This document shows positions 7,980 to 20,454 of a stretch of DNA of 28,395 nucleotides, piece by piece (position 1 is the stretch's first letter; the number at the start of each line of letters is the position of its first letter). The notes beneath the pieces were generated by a model, which saw nothing but the letters and a program-made list of their open reading frames with translations, was not told the origin of the DNA and searched no databases. Source of the DNA: a virus; the IMG/VR virus record IMGVR_UViG_3300009104_000093, positions 1-28,395 of that record. One strand, given 5' to 3'. The position numbers and the translations under genes were made by a program.

Positions 7980-10226
7980 TCATAACCAGACCATGCTCCC
8001 AAGACCATTTAGTGCGTTCTGAAGAACAATAGGGTCTTCTCCCATGAGTATGAAGTATGGCTCAACCTTCTTCACAATGAATCTTTCAGCGATATGTCTA
8101 TACCCAAGTTTGGTAAATCGAGGAGACAATCTCAATTCTTGAATATCATCGAATGCTATGTATTTGCCCTCCTCATCCAAAGATACCATGAAAGATGAGC
8201 CAGCACCATACCCTTTACCTAAGTTTCTGTTAGCCCAATCAGCAGCCGCACGAGCCTCGGAAAGCACTTTGTATTGGCTGAGGTCCTTATCAAGTTTGCC
8301 TCGCATACACAGTTCCTCCCACGCATATTCTTTGCTCATAACCTTCTCTATCGTCTTCACTAAATGGTTGCTGATGTATTGGGGGGACAACCCATCTAAG
8401 AGGCCATCCACCACGAACTGCATTGAGTCCTTCATCACTTGAGGCATTCTTGTTTGTTTCATCTCTATACCTTTGATGTAGGTTTGAGGAGGGTGATAGC
8501 CACCATCAGTCCAAGCGACCTTACACGCATACCTGTTCTTAGCCACGATGATTGAGGACTCGCACCACTTCTCGAACTCGGTGATGATAGGGAACATTTC
8601 CTCATTTATGATTCTAAGACTCCTTTCACCATCTTCAGGTGTTTCCATCCTTACGAACACGGAGTCAGTATGCCCATATAGAACCTCATGTCCTAACGCT
8701 TCTGAATGTCGCCTCAATTCACGCAAGGTATTTCTTGAGGTATAGGTGATGGCAGCAGCCACATCGGGGTGGTATAGTCCGTATCGAGAATCACCAGCCG
8801 CACCATACATAGAAGCAACCAGGCTCTTGGTAGCGAATTGTAGTGCGTCATACCTCCTCCGCTCTTCATCGGTTTCGGCCTGTTTCATATTGTGTTTGTA
8901 TTCATTTCTCAATTCAGTCATGTAGTCCATCTGCCGTTGTAGCAGACCTTTCTTTGAGGTATCAAACTTCAGACCGTTTCCTATGTCTTCACCATAGTCT
9001 GAGATATTTTCCCAAGAGATACCATACTTCGCAACATTGCTGTGATACATGGCTCTAATATCGAGTATGCCTATGTTTTCATAGATTCCAGGAACTGGCT
9101 CCATTATATCAGCACCTTCGTAATCCACCTTATCGAATTGAGGTTTAGATGGTATCTTGAATGAGAAATCTCTATCCCTAAGAGCCAAAACAGTAAACAT
9201 CTTAGTGATATATGGAGTGGTTCTCAAATCACATTGGACTAAGTGCTGGATAGCCAAGTAATGCTCTATGCAATTATTGTAGGCATTTAGTCTGGGTAGC
9301 AGCGTCACATCTTTCCTGTTGTAGTCAATGTATGTGCCTATGTCTGAATAGAATGTATTGTGTCCGTCAGGAAGAGCAACCTTCCTATCCCCCAACGCTT
9401 CCCTCGCAGCCGTATCTAACTTCATGTTAGGCAGTTTGCCGTTCTTCATTTGATAGAGTTTAGTCCATGCTTGCATCAGGTCTATTGTGTTTACTCCAGG
9501 AATAGGTTGCGACCAATCATCCTGATATTCATATCGGTGTCTATCCATAGGAGATAGAGTCTTAGCCCCTATATCCCAATGGTCGAGTCGTTCTGCAAGC
9601 ACCCGTATATCAGCACCTGCTACATACCATCCGGCCACAACATCAGGGTCTTGTTTCCTCATGTGCTTAACAAAATGCCTCAACATATCCTTTTCAGACT
9701 TGAAGGCCATTGCCGGAGTTTCAAACTCAACATAGTCAAGACCTTCTGGGTGGTCTTTACAGGGCATCCTTCTAACAGCCCCTTCTTGACTCCATGAGTT
9801 ATTGCATAAAAACCATGTATAGAGTCGCTCGGTATAGGAATCCAATACAGTTATAGCAGTAATCACTCCACTATCCACAGACCACTCCATATCCAAATAC
9901 CAAACTCTATGTTTGTAATCTGGAAAGGTAGTCATCTTGTCTGATAGGACTCTATTGACGAAAGGTATGTTGGCCTCCCATGTCTTCATGCTCTTCTTGA
10001 GTTGGCCCACATCAAAGGGGTCTCGAAAAATACACTTGGTCAGTTCCTCACCATAGATTCCAGTATAACCATCTTGTTTGGCTGAGCATTCAACCAAGTC
10101 AGCATTTTTAGTTTCAACAAAACAGTAGGGCCAAACATCTGAAATTGTATCAACAATGCGCTCAAGTGTTTCTGGATTCCTTCTCCTTATTTGTATAGTC
10201 CGCCCTCTTAATCGTTCAACAATCAT
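7980..10226 (-). CDS. polB: Family B DNA polymerase with 3'-5' exonuclease domain
   Basis: 748 residues; the replicative polymerase. Exonuclease motifs: YLDMEW (D112/E114), WYVAGADIRVL (D206) and YNRKD (Y302-D306). Polymerase motif A is LDIRAMYHS (D389), replacing the usual DxxSLYPS. Motif B is KSLVASMYG (467-475), with Ala where Asn is usual in KxxxNSxYG. Motif C is YGHTDS (517-522); the catalytic Asp521 is kept but the first Asp is His. Later, YIKGIEMKQTRMP matches the thumb-side KxxG region. The length is near that of archaeal PolB. The start has GGGGGG six bases upstream and follows a structured 110-nt intergenic segment. Polymerase and proofreading activity are expected because the metal ligands are intact. 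Confidence 0.95.
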   Translation of the reverse strand: MIVERLRGRTIQIRRRNPETLERIVDTISDVWPYCFVETKNADLVECSAKQDGYTGIYGEELTKCIFRDPFDVGQLKKSMKTWEANIPFVNRVLSDKMTTFPDYKHRVWYLDMEWSVDSGVITAITVLDSYTERLYTWFLCNNSWSQEGAVRRMPCKDHPEGLDYVEFETPAMAFKSEKDMLRHFVKHMRKQDPDVVAGWYVAGADIRVLAERLDHWDIGAKTLSPMDRHRYEYQDDWSQPIPGVNTIDLMQAWTKLYQMKNGKLPNMKLDTAAREALGDRKVALPDGHNTFYSDIGTYIDYNRKDVTLLPRLNAYNNCIEHYLAIQHLVQCDLRTTPYITKMFTVLALRDRDFSFKIPSKPQFDKVDYEGADIMEPVPGIYENIGILDIRAMYHSNVAKYGISWENISDYGEDIGNGLKFDTSKKGLLQRQMDYMTELRNEYKHNMKQAETDEERRRYDALQFATKSLVASMYGAAGDSRYGLYHPDVAAAITYTSRNTLRELRRHSEALGHEVLYGHTDSVFVRMETPEDGERSLRIINEEMFPIITEFEKWCESSIIVAKNRYACKVAWTDGGYHPPQTYIKGIEMKQTRMPQVMKDSMQFVVDGLLDGLSPQYISNHLVKTIEKVMSKEYAWEELCMRGKLDKDLSQYKVLSEARAAADWANRNLGKGYGAGSSFMVSLDEEGKYIAFDDIQELRLSPRFTKLGYRHIAERFIVKKVEPYFILMGEDPIVLQNALNGLGSMVWL

Positions 10227-10336: not shown

Positions 10337-11491
10337 TCAAATCCATTCAACACCCCCAGCATCAACCTTCCAGCCCCAAAACAATTCGGCTACTTCAGGT
10401 GGTGCTGCCTCTCCTACATATTCAAATGAATAACATTCGCGAGTATTCTGTTTCCAACCCCATTCTTCATTTCCAGGATGAGTATGAACCTTGCGGGACA
10501 CGGCTGTCTCCTTCCAGTTAGGATTATTAAATCTGTGTTTAGCAAAAGCGAAATGAGCATGACGGCTAAAGTAGCGACCGCCTCCAGCCAGAACCATTGA
10601 TGCTATGAAATCAGATAGTTGGACTCCAATACCTAATCCCTGATAATCGGGCAAAACCACAGTACGGCTCGCTCTCCAACCATTCTGAATACCACCGTTA
10701 GGGAACGGCAGGGTGCAAGATATAGCAACAGGTCTGTCTTCCCATGTCGCCACAAAGATTCGAGCAGCGGCATTCAAATCTTCAGTCAGATAGTGATGCG
10801 CTTTGAACAGGTCCCACGCCTCATATTCTGCTCGGAATACTTTGAGGTCAATTTGTGGTCTATGAAAAGACCACCCCCTGTTCTCGTTAATTATGGTTTT
10901 TCCCTCTAAAGGATTATAGACCCAATCAGCGTTCAACCATTCGAGTATATCGTCATGGCAGGAGGCTACGATAACCTTTGCTTCTGACTTACGAATAAAC
11001 TTCTGCAATGCAGATGATGCTGCCTTAGCAACATTCCTATCAACAACTGAAGTAAACTCATCTATTAGAATTACTCCACCATTGACTTGACCGTGAGCAA
11101 CTGCCGCCGCAAGGTTGGCTCTAAATTGCTCGCCGTTTGAAAGTGTGTGAAATGGTCTGCACCATGAAGGAACTGAGGAAAGGCCGACCGCCGAAAGAAT
11201 CCCTGCACTTTCTTCTGGGGTCAGACCAATGCCCCCCACAGACGAAATTATAGACTGGCCGCCTCCCCAGTCGTGCGTGTATATATCTCCAAATGTGCGA
11301 AGTAGCGTAGTCTTGCCTGCTCCAGATGGGCCATAGATACAACCTATTGCCCACTCTTCAGGAGGTCTGATATTGTTAATGATTGTGGTTCTCATTCTGT
11401 CTTCAAGGGGAATGTCGAACATCTTCTCAGCAATTGCTGTGTATTCATCGTGTTGAACATCTGTTTCTAATATGATTTGATTACTCGACAT
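10337..11491 (-). CDS. Soluble ABC ATPase fused to a GNAT acetyltransferase-like domain (COG2401-like)
   Basis: 384 residues in two domains. Residues ~20-205 are an ABC ATPase: Walker A GPSGAGKTT (54-62), signature LSNGE (117-121), Walker B VILIDE (140-145) and H-loop His179. No membrane segment or transporter partner is present. Residues ~215-345 look like a GNAT fold, with the acetyl-CoA loop in TVVLPDYQGLGIG (277-289), preceded by HHYLTEDL and ARIFVATW. The ATPase plus acetyltransferase arrangement matches the family described as COG2401. GNAT-fold proteins include phage Mu Mom, which modifies adenine in DNA, so DNA or nucleotide modification is a possible but unproven role. The ATG at 11491 has GGAGG seven bases upstream and overlaps the winged-helix gene by 11 nt. 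Confidence 0.82.
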   Translation of the reverse strand: MSSNQIILETDVQHDEYTAIAEKMFDIPLEDRMRTTIINNIRPPEEWAIGCIYGPSGAGKTTLLRTFGDIYTHDWGGGQSIISSVGGIGLTPEESAGILSAVGLSSVPSWCRPFHTLSNGEQFRANLAAAVAHGQVNGGVILIDEFTSVVDRNVAKAASSALQKFIRKSEAKVIVASCHDDILEWLNADWVYNPLEGKTIINENRGWSFHRPQIDLKVFRAEYEAWDLFKAHHYLTEDLNAAARIFVATWEDRPVAISCTLPFPNGGIQNGWRASRTVVLPDYQGLGIGVQLSDFIASMVLAGGGRYFSRHAHFAFAKHRFNNPNWKETAVSRKVHTHPGNEEWGWKQNTRECYSFEYVGEAAPPEVAELFWGWKVDAGGVEWI

Positions 11492-11717
11492 TCCTAAGCC
11501 TCCATACTGTCTTGTTAGGTCCGAGAGATATGCTTTCTATGCTGGGAGTACGAGCCATAACATTCACGACCATGTGAATGCTGCCTAATGCTCTTCTCGT
11601 AGTGTGGTTGTAATCGTATAGTGCTTCTTTCATCTCATGAGCACCCCATTCACGATGGGGTTCTCTCTCCATCAATTTGATTATTGATGCTCGCATCATG
11701 TTGTTTCGAGCGGTCAT
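11481..11717 (-). CDS. Small winged-helix DNA-binding protein, 78 aa
   Basis: 78 residues that fit a winged helix-turn-helix: RASIIKLMERE (helix 1), WGAHEMKEALY (helix 2), ALGSIHMVVNVMARTP (recognition helix), and a wing ending VWRLRN. The same architecture is seen in the proteins at 17272-17700 and 24519-24836. The start at 11717 follows GAGGGG by five bases and overlaps the stop of a 44-residue frame as ATGA. It is translated just before the ABC-acetyltransferase gene and may regulate it, but that is only position-based. Confidence 0.72.
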   Translation of the reverse strand: MTARNNMMRASIIKLMEREPHREWGAHEMKEALYDYNHTTRRALGSIHMVVNVMARTPSIESISLGPNKTVWRLRNVE

Positions 11718-11848
11718 ATAGACCCCTCAATAGGTCGGGGGAGGAGGAACGCACACACCACCAAAGCGTCGGGCCAGTTTAGAAAAAAGGAAAGACTATC
11801 CTCCTTCAATCCCGAAAGGATTGCTGACCAACCCCCGTTGAGTTTCAT
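11714..11848 (-). CDS. Micro-protein with hydrophobic C-terminal half, 44 aa
   Basis: This frame joins the clamp gene to the winged-helix gene. Its ATG overlaps the clamp stop (ATGA) and its TGA overlaps the next ATG (ATGA). GGGAGTG lies six bases before the start. The middle and C-terminal part (LSFFLNWPDALVVCAFLLP) is hydrophobic and could be a membrane segment. A small hairpin, CAATCC and GGATTG (11807-11823), lies inside it. The exact overlap at both ends argues that it is coding. Function unknown. Confidence 0.55.
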   Translation of the reverse strand: MKLNGGWSAILSGLKEDSLSFFLNWPDALVVCAFLLPRPIEGSI

Positions 11849-12693
11849 TCGAGCACTCCCGCTTGGAATACCCATGAGTTACCAGGCAGGACCATTAGCA
11901 TTCTAATGCCTTGTCCTTCTGGTCTGAAATCTATGAAGTTAAGTTTGACTTCACCTGAGAATGGCTTTACTATTGTTTCGAGCCCTCCCTCAAAGTCCCA
12001 CTCCCAATGCTGGTCGTAGCCCGTATTCTTTGTTGAGATACTTTCGTCATCAGCAAAGGAAAGTAATTGCGATATTGTTCTGCCCTTGAGTTCGCCTCCG
12101 ACTTCAACAAAGAGTCCGTCGGCATCAACCCTAAACAGGTATCGGTTAAGTTTCTGTCCGTTTATGGAGTCGCAGCGTAGTGCTTCAAAGAGTTCAACCG
12201 CCTCCACAACGAAGCGACAGAATGGCTGACGAGTTGAACCGTCGGCCATAGTGTATGAACCCTCTTCTATATTGAGCCTACCTGATAGGTCTATGGATTT
12301 CGCTTCCCACTCACCAATTGTTTCTGTTGAATGGGGGAATGCTAACCCACCTAAGTCTCCTGTTAGGCTTGTTCTCTTTGAACCTGAGCGAACACGAATC
12401 TTGTTTCCCTCAGTAAAGATATTGACTTGAGAACCATGAGCGTTTAGAACACCCATAAGTCTGTTTATGTCGGGAACACATATTGCTGCCTCACCGTCTT
12501 CACATGGAAGGGTGAATTGAGCCAAAGATGTTTTCCCATCACGAACGAGCGATGTAGTGGATATGAGCCCATCACCGCTCCTCAAGATACAAGCCGTGAC
12601 CTGCTCTTGATTCTTACCAGCGATAGTTTGCTTCCGCTGGGTGAGTTCGAGTGTCGTTCGTAGTGCGTTATTGTTTGTCGTTATTCCAGTCAT
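11845..12693 (-). CDS. Probable sliding clamp (PCNA-like)
   Basis: 282 residues. Sequence similarity to PCNA is weak by eye, but the pattern is consistent with the fold: SGDGLISTTSLVRDGKTS early, then VPDINRLMGVLNAHGSQV and an inter-domain hydrophilic stretch, and a second domain ending in GQGIRMLMVLPGNSW, like the C-terminal beta-strand of clamps. A clamp is expected because PolB and a clamp-loader small subunit are present. The frame extends to an ATG at 12711, but a TATA-like element ends at 12716, 23 nt from the ATG at 12693; GGTGG also precedes 12693. The shorter start is therefore chosen. Other beta-rich DNA-binding proteins cannot be excluded. Confidence 0.58.
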   Translation of the reverse strand: MTGITTNNNALRTTLELTQRKQTIAGKNQEQVTACILRSGDGLISTTSLVRDGKTSLAQFTLPCEDGEAAICVPDINRLMGVLNAHGSQVNIFTEGNKIRVRSGSKRTSLTGDLGGLAFPHSTETIGEWEAKSIDLSGRLNIEEGSYTMADGSTRQPFCRFVVEAVELFEALRCDSINGQKLNRYLFRVDADGLFVEVGGELKGRTISQLLSFADDESISTKNTGYDQHWEWDFEGGLETIVKPFSGEVKLNFIDFRPEGQGIRMLMVLPGNSWVFQAGVLE

Positions 12694-12715
12694 ATTTATA
12701 CCACCAATCATTGCC

Positions 12716-16548: not shown

Positions 16549-16707
16549 TCAGTCTCTCCATTTGTAATTCTTTGTTATTGGTGGTTTTTCGCTCAATTTC
16601 CCGCCGCAGAAAAAGCAGTTCCTACCGTCAAAAGAGGTATGCTTCTTCGCCCTCCACTTACTACAATAATTGCAGTAGCCTACCCATTCAGTCGATGATA
16701 CCAACAT
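16549..16707 (-). CDS. Zinc-ribbon protein, 52 aa
   Basis: Two CxxC pairs, CNYC and CFFC, separated by 17 residues of basic sequence, make a standard four-Cys zinc ribbon. A longer frame begins at 16734 inside the kinase gene but has no ribosome-binding site; the ATG at 16707 follows AGGTG by seven bases and is preferred. It overlaps the kinase end by 20 nt and ends one base before the clamp-loader ATG, so it belongs to that operon. Function unknown. Confidence 0.72.
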   Translation of the reverse strand: MLVSSTEWVGYCNYCSKWRAKKHTSFDGRNCFFCGGKLSEKPPITKNYKWRD

Positions 16708-17263
16708 TTGTGAGCACCTGGTGTATCTGTGCATAGGCTTCGTGTGGAAGCAGGGAAGATGTATCTATGGTAGCAAGATAACTGGAGAAGCCATCCAGAC
16801 CTACCTCCGATGGATGGTTAAGGCTGGTGGGGTCGTTCTTCGCTCCTCTTTCTATTCGAGTTTCTTCGTCGCAATCAAGCCTAATGAGAACTCCCCCTTC
16901 TTCTATTATCATAGTGGCCTCATTCAGATATCTAACATCGTCTATGAAAACTATTGAGTCAGGTGGTATTAGATTCCAGAAGGGGTCATCAAACATGAGG
17001 TCTATCCAGTAGTCATCTCCCCACACTTCTCTCATACCATTACCCCACGCTTGCAGTATAGGTCTTAGTTTCTGCTTATCCATTCCTCCTAAAATGCTCT
17101 TATTGATTCCCATACCCGTTGCTACCTGTTGTCTAACGGGGTCAGCAAAGGATATTCTTCTGGCTTTGCCTGCGTGGTTCTTGAGGAAGAGGTTAGCAAT
17201 GGTGGTTTTGCCGGACCGAAGCCCTCCACATAACCCAACGATGACTATTTCATCCCCGCTCAT
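16688..17263 (-). CDS. Deoxynucleoside monophosphate kinase (phage T4 gp1-like)
   Basis: 191 residues. Phosphorylates dNMPs to dNDPs for viral DNA synthesis. The P-loop is GLCGGLRSGKTT, followed by RISFADPVRQQVA, then LQAWGNGMREVWGDDYW, a segment typical of phage dNMP kinases, and DDVRYLNEATMI with GGVLIRL further on. A TTG-started frame at 17275 overlaps the previous stop, but the ATG at 17263 lies 24 nt from a TATA-like element and is chosen. It may therefore start its own leaderless transcript as well as being read through. Confidence 0.87.
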   Translation of the reverse strand: MSGDEIVIVGLCGGLRSGKTTIANLFLKNHAGKARRISFADPVRQQVATGMGINKSILGGMDKQKLRPILQAWGNGMREVWGDDYWIDLMFDDPFWNLIPPDSIVFIDDVRYLNEATMIIEEGGVLIRLDCDEETRIERGAKNDPTSLNHPSEVGLDGFSSYLATIDTSSLLPHEAYAQIHQVLTNVGIID

Positions 17264-17271
17264 GAATCTAA

Positions 17272-17700
17272 TCAATCGTCATGGGTTATTAAATGTTCCT
17301 TTCTGGAACACCGTAGGCACATTTCAGAATCTTCTGGTAGTATTCTGCTACGGTTGCATTGCGAACACCGTTGAGCCCTCTTGGCTTCGTAGGCATAAAG
17401 GCTGGATATTGGGAGGGACATTACTATATCCTCAACACAAAATATATAACTCCTGTCTATGTCGAAGGTTGGTTTGTTCTTCATCCTTCCACTGCTCGAA
17501 GCCACCTTAGTTGTGCCTACTGTTAGTATGGCTTGAGTCTTGGTGAGTATAGAAGCAAGTGATTGAGCAGATGGCTGGAGTCTGTTATCGAAATAGGATA
17601 ATTTGGACATGAGTTCGAATCTCGACATTTCACCTCGTTCCAATAATATCTGCATAACCGCCCGCCTGAGACGAGAATTGTTGGCGCACGATGCTGGCAT
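17272..17700 (-). CDS. Winged-helix protein with C-terminal zinc ribbon, 142 aa
   Basis: The N-terminal ~75 residues are a winged-helix domain (LRRAVMQILLERGEMSRFEL, then a recognition helix near SAQSLASILTKT). The C-terminus has CSQC and CLRC, a zinc ribbon. This combination is common in archaeal transcription regulators. The ATG at 17700 is about 22 nt from a TATA-like element. It precedes the kinase/loader genes and could regulate them; that is inference. Confidence 0.72.
   Translation of the reverse strand: MPASCANNSRLRRAVMQILLERGEMSRFELMSKLSYFDNRLQPSAQSLASILTKTQAILTVGTTKVASSSGRMKNKPTFDIDRSYIFCVEDIVMSLPISSLYAYEAKRAQRCSQCNRSRILPEDSEMCLRCSRKEHLITHDD
17287..17298 (-). promoter_or_regulatory. 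TATA-like promoter of the dNMP kinase operon
   Basis: The minus strand reads GAACATTTAATA, inside the last codons of the winged-helix/zinc gene. Its 3' end is 24 nt before the ATG at 17263. A short ATG between the two is followed by no useful frame. Confidence 0.6.
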
Positions 17701-18767: not shown

Positions 18768-20231
18768 TTATGTTTCGATAATCAATGTATCTGTTGTTAG
18801 AACCAAACTTGATACTGATGTTGCGGCTCTTAGAGAATTAGCAACGACAGATGCTGGGTCAATAATAATTGAACTGCAAGCATCTATCCAATCTGCTACT
18901 GATATGCCAGCATTATTCGCCAATGTTTCTGCAACTGCCATAAGCCCCTTCATCATAATACCTGAACGGCATAGTGGGAGCATACTGTGGTGTATCACAC
19001 CACCACCTCTTACCACGCCACTTTGAAGAGCGGCTCTTGTAGCATTGATAGAGTCGTCAATTCGCATCTTAGTCTCCATTCCTTCTGCTTCTGTGTTAGC
19101 ACTTATGCTGATGGTCGCTACTCGGCCTTGAAGGTTGGCTATCCTATCAGCCATGACTCGCTTATCCCAATCATGTTCTGATTCCTCCATTGCTTTCCTC
19201 ATTATTGCTTCTCTCTCATTAACATCTTCGTCAGTTTGTTCGTTAAGTGGAATGAGTACTGAAGAGTTATCCCTAACGATAACACTTGCCTCGCCGGACC
19301 AATCTTCCTCAAAGTCCTTCAACCTTTCGCCCAATCCAGACATGATGTGTTTAGCACCAGCCCTACAAGCAATATCTCCTGCTATGTCTTCCTTTTGCTT
19401 GCCCTGACCTGGCAGAACGAGAACCGTAGCATCAACCTTACCCTGAACAACATTCAGCGCGAGCGTATCTAATGCTATCTTGCTGATATTACCACATATC
19501 AAAACCAATGGTAATTTCTCTTCGACTGAATATGTTAGTGCGGGAACGAGTTCTGGGAAGTCATTGATGACCTCATCAGTCACCACCACTATTGCATCTG
19601 TGTATTCGACCTCTTGTTGGTTCTTCATCAAATGTTGTGATGCTGGACCAGAAGAAATCTTCATCCCTTGAATGAAATCGAGTTGGGGGGAATCTGTTAG
19701 GCCGTCAATCATTACTATTGTTCCTGTATCTCCGACAACATTGAAAGCATCCGAGATAACCTTGCCTAACTCCTCATCATTGTTGGCTGAAATGGTAGCC
19801 ACACTCAATAGGCTATCCTCATCAACATCAACAGCCACTTCTCCTATGTGGTGCAATAGTGATAAGAGGTCATCATCTAATTCGCGTTTGAGTTTCTTTG
19901 CACTATTGCCTTCGTTGAGCAGTTGGAATGCGTGAAGACACATTGCTTCAGCCATTATGGTTGCTGTCGTAGTCCCATCACCAGATGCCTTTTGTGCTTC
20001 TTCAGCAACTTCGCGCATTAGCGACGCACCGAGTTCCTCGAATGGGTCTTCGGGTTTGATTTGTCTAACGACAGAAACTCCATCATTAACTACGAATGGT
20101 CTGCCGCTCGGGGCTTTGTATAGGACTGTGTAAGCATCAGGTCCAAGCGTTCCACGAACAGAATCAGCCACCGCTGATATGCCTTTCACCATTGCGGACC
20201 TCGCTTCATTACCCTTTAGTATTTTACTCAT
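18768..20231 (-). CDS. groEL: Group I chaperonin (GroEL-like)
   Basis: 487 residues; ATP-driven protein-folding ring. The sequence follows GroEL rather than the archaeal thermosome: NDGVSVVRQI (equivalent to GroEL Asp52), SGDGTTTAT (Asp87), GMKISSGP at the apical boundary, and RIDDSINATRAALQSGVVRGGG (Asp398). The ATPase aspartates are kept. The C-terminal equatorial part (LDP-like IIIDPASVVANSLRAATSVSSLVLTT) also aligns with GroEL. It is about 60 residues shorter than GroEL and lacks the GGM tail. The ATG at 20231 has GGTGGG six bases upstream and is preferred over the ATG at 20237. It overlaps the end of a candidate co-chaperonin gene. Confidence 0.93.
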   Translation of the reverse strand: MSKILKGNEARSAMVKGISAVADSVRGTLGPDAYTVLYKAPSGRPFVVNDGVSVVRQIKPEDPFEELGASLMREVAEEAQKASGDGTTTATIMAEAMCLHAFQLLNEGNSAKKLKRELDDDLLSLLHHIGEVAVDVDEDSLLSVATISANNDEELGKVISDAFNVVGDTGTIVMIDGLTDSPQLDFIQGMKISSGPASQHLMKNQQEVEYTDAIVVVTDEVINDFPELVPALTYSVEEKLPLVLICGNISKIALDTLALNVVQGKVDATVLVLPGQGKQKEDIAGDIACRAGAKHIMSGLGERLKDFEEDWSGEASVIVRDNSSVLIPLNEQTDEDVNEREAIMRKAMEESEHDWDKRVMADRIANLQGRVATISISANTEAEGMETKMRIDDSINATRAALQSGVVRGGGVIHHSMLPLCRSGIMMKGLMAVAETLANNAGISVADWIDACSSIIIDPASVVANSLRAATSVSSLVLTTDTLIIET

Positions 20232-20454
20232 CTTCATCCCACCCCATTACTTGCATTCTGCCTATCAGCCAGATGTTAGGTGCTACTTCTATATCAGTTT
20301 CGCTCGAACAGAAATAAATGTGTTTGTCTGTGAAGGTGTCGAGTGGGTCATCAATGACTTTCGCTCTGTATTCGCTGATGTTGGATATTAACCCATGCGA
20401 GTGGCTCGTGTTTCCAATCTCAATCAATAAGTTTCCTACTGTTGCCTTAATCAT
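20224..20454 (-). CDS. Candidate divergent GroES-like co-chaperonin, 76 aa
   Basis: 76 residues, directly before and overlapping groEL, which is the usual groES position. The order of hydrophobic strands resembles GroES and T4 gp31: IKATVGNLLIEI, a short loop ending HGLI (compare the GGI/SGLI mobile-loop tripeptide), YRAKVID, DKHIYFCSSE, then EVAPNIWLIGRMQV. It is shorter than GroES (about 97). This is by-eye reasoning and needs structure prediction. A weak TATA-like CATAATA lies 23 nt upstream of the ATG, and AGG is seven bases before it. Confidence 0.45.
   Translation of the reverse strand: MIKATVGNLLIEIGNTSHSHGLISNISEYRAKVIDDPLDTFTDKHIYFCSSETDIEVAPNIWLIGRMQVMGWDEDE

Follow-up and report, generated by a model that had tools for sequence, protein, structure and literature searches.

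The ABC ATPase-GNAT fusion gene

The window, a stretch of 28,395 nucleotides covering positions 1 to 28,395 of the IMG/VR virus record IMGVR_UViG_3300009104_000093, carries a minus-strand gene in which an ABC ATPase domain is joined to a GNAT acyltransferase domain. The gene, its domains and its motifs are located as follows.

10337..11491, minus strand: ABC ATPase-GNAT fusion gene, 384 amino acids, ATG start (PHROG 11143 match, structure model, purifying selection)
10877..11491, minus strand: ABC ATPase domain, residues about 1-205 (PF00005, ABC_tran, above cut-off; fold match to 1l2t, Z 14.8)
11309..11332, minus strand: Walker A, residues 54-61 (G54, S56, G57, G59 and K60 invariant in 77/77 sequences)
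11129..11143, minus strand: ABC signature LSNGE, residues 117-121 (S118 and G120 invariant; L117 and E121 at least 90%)
11057..11074, minus strand: Walker B, residues 140-145 (D144 and E145 invariant in the 77 sequences)
10955..10957, minus strand: H-loop His179 (invariant in 77/77)
10406..10855, minus strand: GNAT acyltransferase domain, residues about 213-362 (structure model, GNAT folds, Acetyltransf_7 in relatives)
10787..10807, minus strand: FxxHHYL motif, residues 229-235, putative active-site or substrate side (F229, H233 and Y234 invariant in 77/77)
10625..10642, minus strand: acyl-CoA pyrophosphate loop QGLGIG, residues 284-289 (Q284 and G285 invariant; G287 in 75/77, G289 in 72/77)

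PHROG 11143, a family annotated as of unknown function, matched residues 5-363 of the 384 (profile positions 2-353 of 357) with an E value of 4.1e-106. When 77 family sequences including the window protein were aligned, 27 positions were invariant; those in the GNAT part were F229, H233, Y234, R276, P281, Q284, G285 and W326, the first three belonging to the motif to which an active-site or substrate-side role is putatively assigned. The Pfam profiles Acetyltransf_7 and Acetyltransf_1 fell below cut-off in the window protein and matched 78 and 77, respectively, of 79 GNAT domains from relatives, with E values up to 1. The pN/pS of the fusion gene was 0.12-0.28 against four close relatives, with synonymous changes near saturation in these comparisons, indicating purifying selection. 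The GNAT half was under stronger constraint in both relatives compared by domain, with a pN/pS of 0.097 (GNAT) and 0.139 (ABC) against L002 and of 0.221 and 0.329 against L006. Domains, motifs and selection together show that the fusion is a working gene and no chance ORF, and the slower evolution of the GNAT domain with its retained acyl-CoA loop shows that this domain is no passenger.

The whole-protein AlphaFold2 model, built with 77 related sequences, had a mean pLDDT of 90.0 and a pTM of 0.86; the GNAT part modelled alone reached a pLDDT of 88.4. The solved structures nearest to the ABC half were ABC ATPases, e.g., MJ0796 (1l2t; Z 14.8, 178 residues aligned, rmsd 3.1). The fold search with the GNAT model returned many GNAT structures at Z 12-13.5, such as 1y9k (Z 13.5, rmsd 3.6, 135 aligned) and RimI 5isv (Z 13.3, rmsd 3.4, 131 aligned), and no Mom among the matches listed. 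The GNAT superfamily hallmark was present, namely the GNAT fold with a Q/R-x-x-G-x-G/A loop (QGLGIG). The joining of an ABC ATPase to a GNAT domain, as proposed in the sequence-only reading, is thus real, with intact motifs and both domains confidently modelled. The same reading held that it would be refuted by a fold match to a protein-acetylating enzyme with a clear protein target. Protein acetylases (RimI, Naa50) were literally among the best matches, but the listed GNATs all tied at Z 12-13.5, and such a match therefore discriminates nothing. A modelled GNAT fold by itself cannot separate DNA, protein or RNA targets, nor can it name the substrate.

Position of the fusion gene in the replication block

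The fusion gene lay between a sliding-clamp-like gene and PolB, in agreement with the proposed location beside DNA polymerase in a replication block. Three minus-strand neighbours define this setting.

11845..12711, minus strand: sliding-clamp gene of PCNA type, bounding the accessory slot on the left (processivity factor PHROG 947, E 0.006; conserved synteny)
7980..10226, minus strand: family B DNA polymerase (PolB), right border of the slot (PF00136, E 1.6e-28; conserved synteny)
11481..11717, minus strand: 78-aa ORF, possible winged helix (11-nt overlap with the start of the fusion gene)

Besides PolB and the clamp-like protein, the neighbours in the window comprised a clamp-loader small subunit, a chaperonin, nucleases and a primase-like ORF, with the primase and ERCC4-type names assigned by eye. 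Judging from their sequences, the genes around the fusion form an archaeal-type replisome. This gene content, from which the host is also inferred, suggests a magrovirus-like archaeal tailed virus of marine Poseidoniales. The ICTV profile describes a magrovirus group with PolB and an archaeal-like primase (PMC12999244). When PolB was compared with the collections searched, only distant relatives were found, none of them a named magrovirus.

Two other genes of the window were recorded. A TCP-1/cpn60-type chaperonin is encoded at 18768-20237 (PF00118, E 2e-33); its position varies among the related contigs, lying between an AAA gene and the clamp in L006 and L007 and before the primase in L004. 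A kinase-like ORF at 16688-17275 matched dephospho-CoA kinase and deoxynucleotide monophosphate kinase weakly, and its product could serve the supply of CoA or nucleotides.

The 78-aa ORF had been read as a winged-helix protein translated with the fusion. The winged-helix identity is unproven: the ORF had no Pfam match, and its best PHROG match had an E value of 0.08. A winged helix common to the slot was also considered and gave weak matches, at hhalign probabilities of 10-21%. Relatives of this ORF were present in L002, L003/L004 and L005 and absent from L006 and L007; counting the window, four of the six distinct carriers have it, showing that it is no obligate partner of the fusion.

The order clamp-fusion-PolB was kept in six further contigs (L002-L007). 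Since L003 and L004 encode an identical fusion protein, the distinct carriers number six (window, L002, L003/L004, L005, L006 and L007). A PolB search yielded 30 more loci, 27 of which span the clamp-PolB interval; L051 and L006 are one contig, so L051 was set aside, and the remaining 26 were all without the fusion, indicating that the fusion was inserted as an accessory gene into a block that is otherwise conserved. Its place as an accessory insert of the clamp-PolB slot in apparent archaeal tailed viruses is new. In a tree of 121 rows made by a quick method, with L003, L005 and L006 left out, the window grouped with L002, L004 and L007 (support 100) and then with L080 and L161-L164 (support 98).

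DNA modification genes recurred in the slot. In L002 the order was C5-cytosine methylase (PF00145, 1e-33), small ORF, fusion, Mom-like gene and a further small ORF; in L006 it was C5-methylase, fusion, N6/N4-methylase (3e-44) and HTH protein. An N6/N4-methylase ORF also occupied the slot in 3 of the 26 fusion-less relatives (L052, L053 and L054), with the first two scanned and that of L054 called from near-identity to the ORF of L053. The Mom-like gene directly behind the fusion in L002 (9143-9700) matched PHROG 1384 (E 4e-33) and XF1762 (163 bits, cut-off 50); it was under the Pfam Mom cut-off and had no BLASTP match to Mu Mom. In the window, L003/L004, L005 and L007, the four remaining distinct carriers, where the ORFs were read and not each scanned, no modification enzyme was recognised beside the fusion, which counts against the DNA-modifying function favoured below.

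Distribution of the family and pairing of the two domains

The fusion had been thought uncommon; it proved to belong to a widespread phage, virus and prophage family. Among named phages, 74 of 50,697 records matched, and in 30 of these the match extended across 80% or more of the query; the hosts, as read from their names, were Bacteroidota, Pseudomonadota, Actinomycetota, Bacillota and Spirochaetota. Cultured carriers include Nonlabens phage P12024S, Leptospira phage LE3, the Gordonia phages Sisko and Jace, Lactococcus phage P335 and Pseudomonas phage Komp_PAO1_1. Relatives at E <= 1e-3 among the matches listed made up 589 of 600 viral and 358 of 595 GTDB stretches, figures that count matches, not every one of which was verified as a fusion. 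The best 80 GTDB loci were mostly from Planctomycetota, and many had terminase and portal genes nearby, so that they resemble prophages or related elements.

The ATPase and the GNAT were separate adjacent genes in P335, Javan523, TR-TP1 and one IMG/VR contig (L033, L035, L042 and L044). A second, free-standing GNAT gene stood directly behind the fusion in six IMG/VR loci (L015, L023 and L025-L028). The split genes and the extra GNAT genes indicate that ATPase and GNAT work together as a pair. On a 176-kb contig binned as an archaeon (L080:3879-6131), overlapping ASCH-like, macro-domain and nucleoside 2-deoxyribosyltransferase-like genes ran into an ABC-GNAT gene with 50% identity to that of the window.

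Partner genes

Partners were counted in loci that were non-redundant at 90%, the GTDB loci being the best 80 and no random draw. When the open frames of loci with enough upstream sequence were searched with profiles, a ParB-like gene was found directly upstream of the fusion in 60 of 71 GTDB loci and 13 of 88 viral loci; the same search found none in the window or in L002-L007. Calling the longest ORFs gave ParB in 44 of 75 GTDB loci, as this approach missed many in G+C-rich loci. The same ParB family occurred in several phage genes annotated as adenine-specific methyltransferase, and such a ParB and methylase protein matched the PHROG 498 DNA methyltransferase with an E value of 4.5e-45. A terminase gene lay within four genes of the fusion in 30 of 75 of the best 80 GTDB loci.

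A formyltransferase gene followed the fusion directly in Komp_PAO1_1, Sisko, phage008a_KCOM2797 and two gut contigs; a third gut contig, MT835521, had none within 2.5 kb, none is annotated there in P12024S, and nine further Gordonia phages fit the arrangement by coordinates. The three such members placed in the tree fell into one subclade of the fusion family and were therefore counted as one origin. Gene 3 of Gordonia phage Sisko (L037:1814-2461), annotated as 'tRNA-methyltransferase', matched formyl transferase PF00551 (E 4.5e-10); its annotation, repeated in related phages, is probably wrong. An aspartate decarboxylase gene came after the fusion in Jace and in the Gemmataceae locus L122.

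ASCH-type proteins include the N4-acylcytosine hydrolase YqfB. ASCH matches clustered near the fusion gene, 9 of 11 lying within 1.5 kb; in a crude comparison their density was 1.94 per 100 kb near the gene and 0.25 and 0.19 further out. The catalytic residues proposed for YqfB are Lys21, Thr24, Glu74 and Arg26 (PMC6972931). All seven ASCH neighbours that were aligned had Lys-x-x-Glu-Asn-Arg and not Lys-x-x-Thr-x-Arg, showing that the YqfB nucleophile is missing, and a role as YqfB-like erasers was rejected; they may instead be readers of a mark. One locus, L080, had an ASCH-like sequence with Lys-x-x-Thr-x-Arg, as judged by eye. For the one member of this group scanned, from L157, Pfam gave no match, and the name ASCH is likewise a reading by eye.

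Palindrome avoidance

The window was nearly empty of several short palindromes: GATC occurred 0 times (138 expected by shuffling), AGCT twice (116 expected), CTAG 0 times (84 expected) and ACGT 0 times (43 expected), showing that any modification does not free those sites; in the per-locus count the expected numbers for the four lay between 43 and 114. The per-locus repeat covered 16 of the 26 fusion-less slot-spanning loci, the other ten being short or near-duplicate and excluded. AGCT was absent from these 16 loci (about 660 expected), and CGCG was at 5% of expectation. By contrast, L006, which carries two methylases and the fusion, had 100 AGCT (102 expected) and 50 CTAG (52 expected), with GATC at half of expectation. 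Methylases may therefore lessen the avoidance, an effect not seen with the fusion by itself. Weaker avoidance had been expected in carriers and was not seen: with 6 carrier and 11 non-carrier loci, the observed/expected ratio was 0.605 vs 0.615 for tetramers and 0.412 vs 0.426 for hexamers.

If DNA were simply shielded from restriction, palindromes would need no purging. The avoidance in the window therefore speaks against simple blanket anti-restriction protection. Avoidance may, however, be slow to respond to the gain of the gene, and a mark may have another role, with a packaging signal, regulation and escape from other defences as options.

Comparison with known systems

The closest counterpart was the family of PHROG 11143 and Iyer et al. 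(2013), which matched over its full length and has the same domain order as the window protein. The window member differs in lying in an archaeal-type replication block, in having no ParB gene and in an extra C-terminal tail past residue 363. Mu Mom and Mom-like proteins (PF25680, PHROG 1384, XF1762) are viral members of the GNAT superfamily linked to DNA modification, a setting like that of the fusion. Membership in the Mom family was rejected: hhalign against Mu Mom gave a probability of 0.2%, and Pfam Mom matched 1 of 79 GNAT domains (E 0.041). Mom is not known to have an ABC ATPase.

The RNA cytidine acetyltransferases TmcA, Kre33 and NAT10 combine a P-loop ATPase and a GNAT in one protein and act on a nucleic-acid base. 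Their ATPase is a helicase-type P-loop domain, whereas that of the window protein is ABC; PF13718 was found in 9 of 79 members, and the similarity was at the level of motifs. TmcA ranked 13 in the whole-model fold search, but the superposition was poor (TM 0.26, rmsd 13.9), leaving an analogy and no homologue. The phage proteins that combine a ParB domain and a DNA methylase have the same ParB family beside or fused to a modifying enzyme. They carry a methylase in place of the ABC-GNAT pair, and the window is without a ParB partner.

Function of the fusion protein

We consider it reasonably probable that the fusion protein is an ATP-gated DNA-base acyltransferase. Other non-transport ABC ATPases, such as Rad50, UvrA and MutS, clamp DNA. 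In the predicted mechanism, two ABC domains would close around ATP and clamp the viral DNA, thereby placing the GNAT domain so that it could pass an acyl group from acyl-CoA onto a base, at its exocyclic amino group; ATP hydrolysis would then reset the clamp. The ParB-like protein of most bacterial prophage members may help to find or load DNA, and it would have been lost or replaced in the viral lineage of the window. Freshly replicated viral genomes would probably be marked or protected in this way. A DNA-modifying GNAT, as in the sequence-only reading, is the reading best supported by the neighbourhoods, in which the slot holds methylases and a Mom-like gene and the ParB partner is one that DNA methylases also have; the proposed link to Mom fell with the profile comparisons above, and we obtained no support for a DNA-translocating version.

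Other functions were weighed against the same evidence. The GNAT domain might acetylate a host or viral protein, such as RNA polymerase, a ribosomal protein or a part of the replisome, during host takeover, with the ABC domain regulating or targeting it. RimI and N-terminal acetylases were among the best fold matches, and a review describes Rac, a GNAT that phiKMV-like phages encode, as an acetylase of the host's RNA polymerase (PMC7824862). The tie among GNAT folds means that such matches say little, however, and the genes that recur nearby encode DNA methylases, ParB-like proteins, terminase and a Mom-like protein, so that we regard this function as unlikely. The replication block of the window, the ParB genes directly upstream (60 of 71 of the best 80 GTDB loci) and the terminases within four genes (30 of 75), which fit packaging, would also suit an ABC protein that acts on DNA with ParB and terminase in end binding, recombination or the start of packaging, the GNAT domain serving as a sensor or modifying packaging proteins. 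Against this stand the slower evolution of the GNAT domain with its retained acyl-CoA loop and the position of the window fusion between clamp and PolB, with no terminase; we hold it to be quite improbable.

Acylation of tRNA or rRNA by the GNAT domain, with an ABC-F-like ATPase part, has little to recommend it in our judgement. The best PDB sequence matches of the fusion (E 2e-6) are to what we take to be ABC-F proteins, the GNAT part had a weak, motif-level match to RNA cytidine acetyltransferase (E 0.33), and the best E value for PF13718 in its 9 of 79 GNAT domains was 0.0035. ABC-F proteins carry two ABC domains, whereas the fusion has one per chain; a generic ABC domain matches many ABC families, and the gene neighbours concern DNA. 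We give almost no credence to a transporter ATPase or small-molecule acetylase kept as an auxiliary gene, even though relatives are automatically annotated as 'hemin importer' and 'siderophore transporter' and PHROG 293 'ABC transporter' matched with an E value of 3e-19: the NCBIfam transporter families were far under cut-off among the matches listed (best 35.1 vs 261 bits), and no permease was annotated beside the fusion in the loci inspected.

The favoured function, DNA-base acylation, is sound as an idea but not new. In section 19 of a review, citing Iyer et al. 2013, the ABC-GNAT pair is already predicted to perform an uncharacterised acyl modification of DNA bases, and Tenacibaculum phage pT24 is named as an example (PMC7824862); the sequence-only reading thus reached a known prediction independently. 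The protein of pT24 was among the best matches to the window protein, with 43.6% identity. The partner genes listed here may partly stand already in Iyer et al. 2013. The pair was not described in the passages of the BREX, restriction-modification and archaeal-virus literature, and none of the terms ABC, GNAT, acetyltransferase, DNA modification, chaperonin and thermosome occurred in the main text of a 2023 magrovirus paper (PMC10160649). An extended version of the prediction, tentative and as a whole rather doubtful, would have the ABC-clamped GNAT make a new acyl or aminoacyl DNA base, as the DNA counterpart of the RNA N4-acetylcytidine writers. A formyltransferase would finish the modification in one clade, aspartate decarboxylase could supply beta-alanine in two loci, nearby ASCH/DUF3850 proteins may read the mark, and the archaeal slot would swap methylases, the Mom-like gene and this writer.

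If the prediction is true, ATP-driven acyltransferases acting on DNA would form a new class of enzyme and account for a family that occurs in phages of many bacterial phyla, in apparent archaeal viruses and in loci of Planctomycetota that resemble prophages. The formyltransferase and aspartate decarboxylase neighbours provide concrete guesses at the chemistry, and the cultured carriers, with DNA that can be measured, make this decade-old prediction directly testable.
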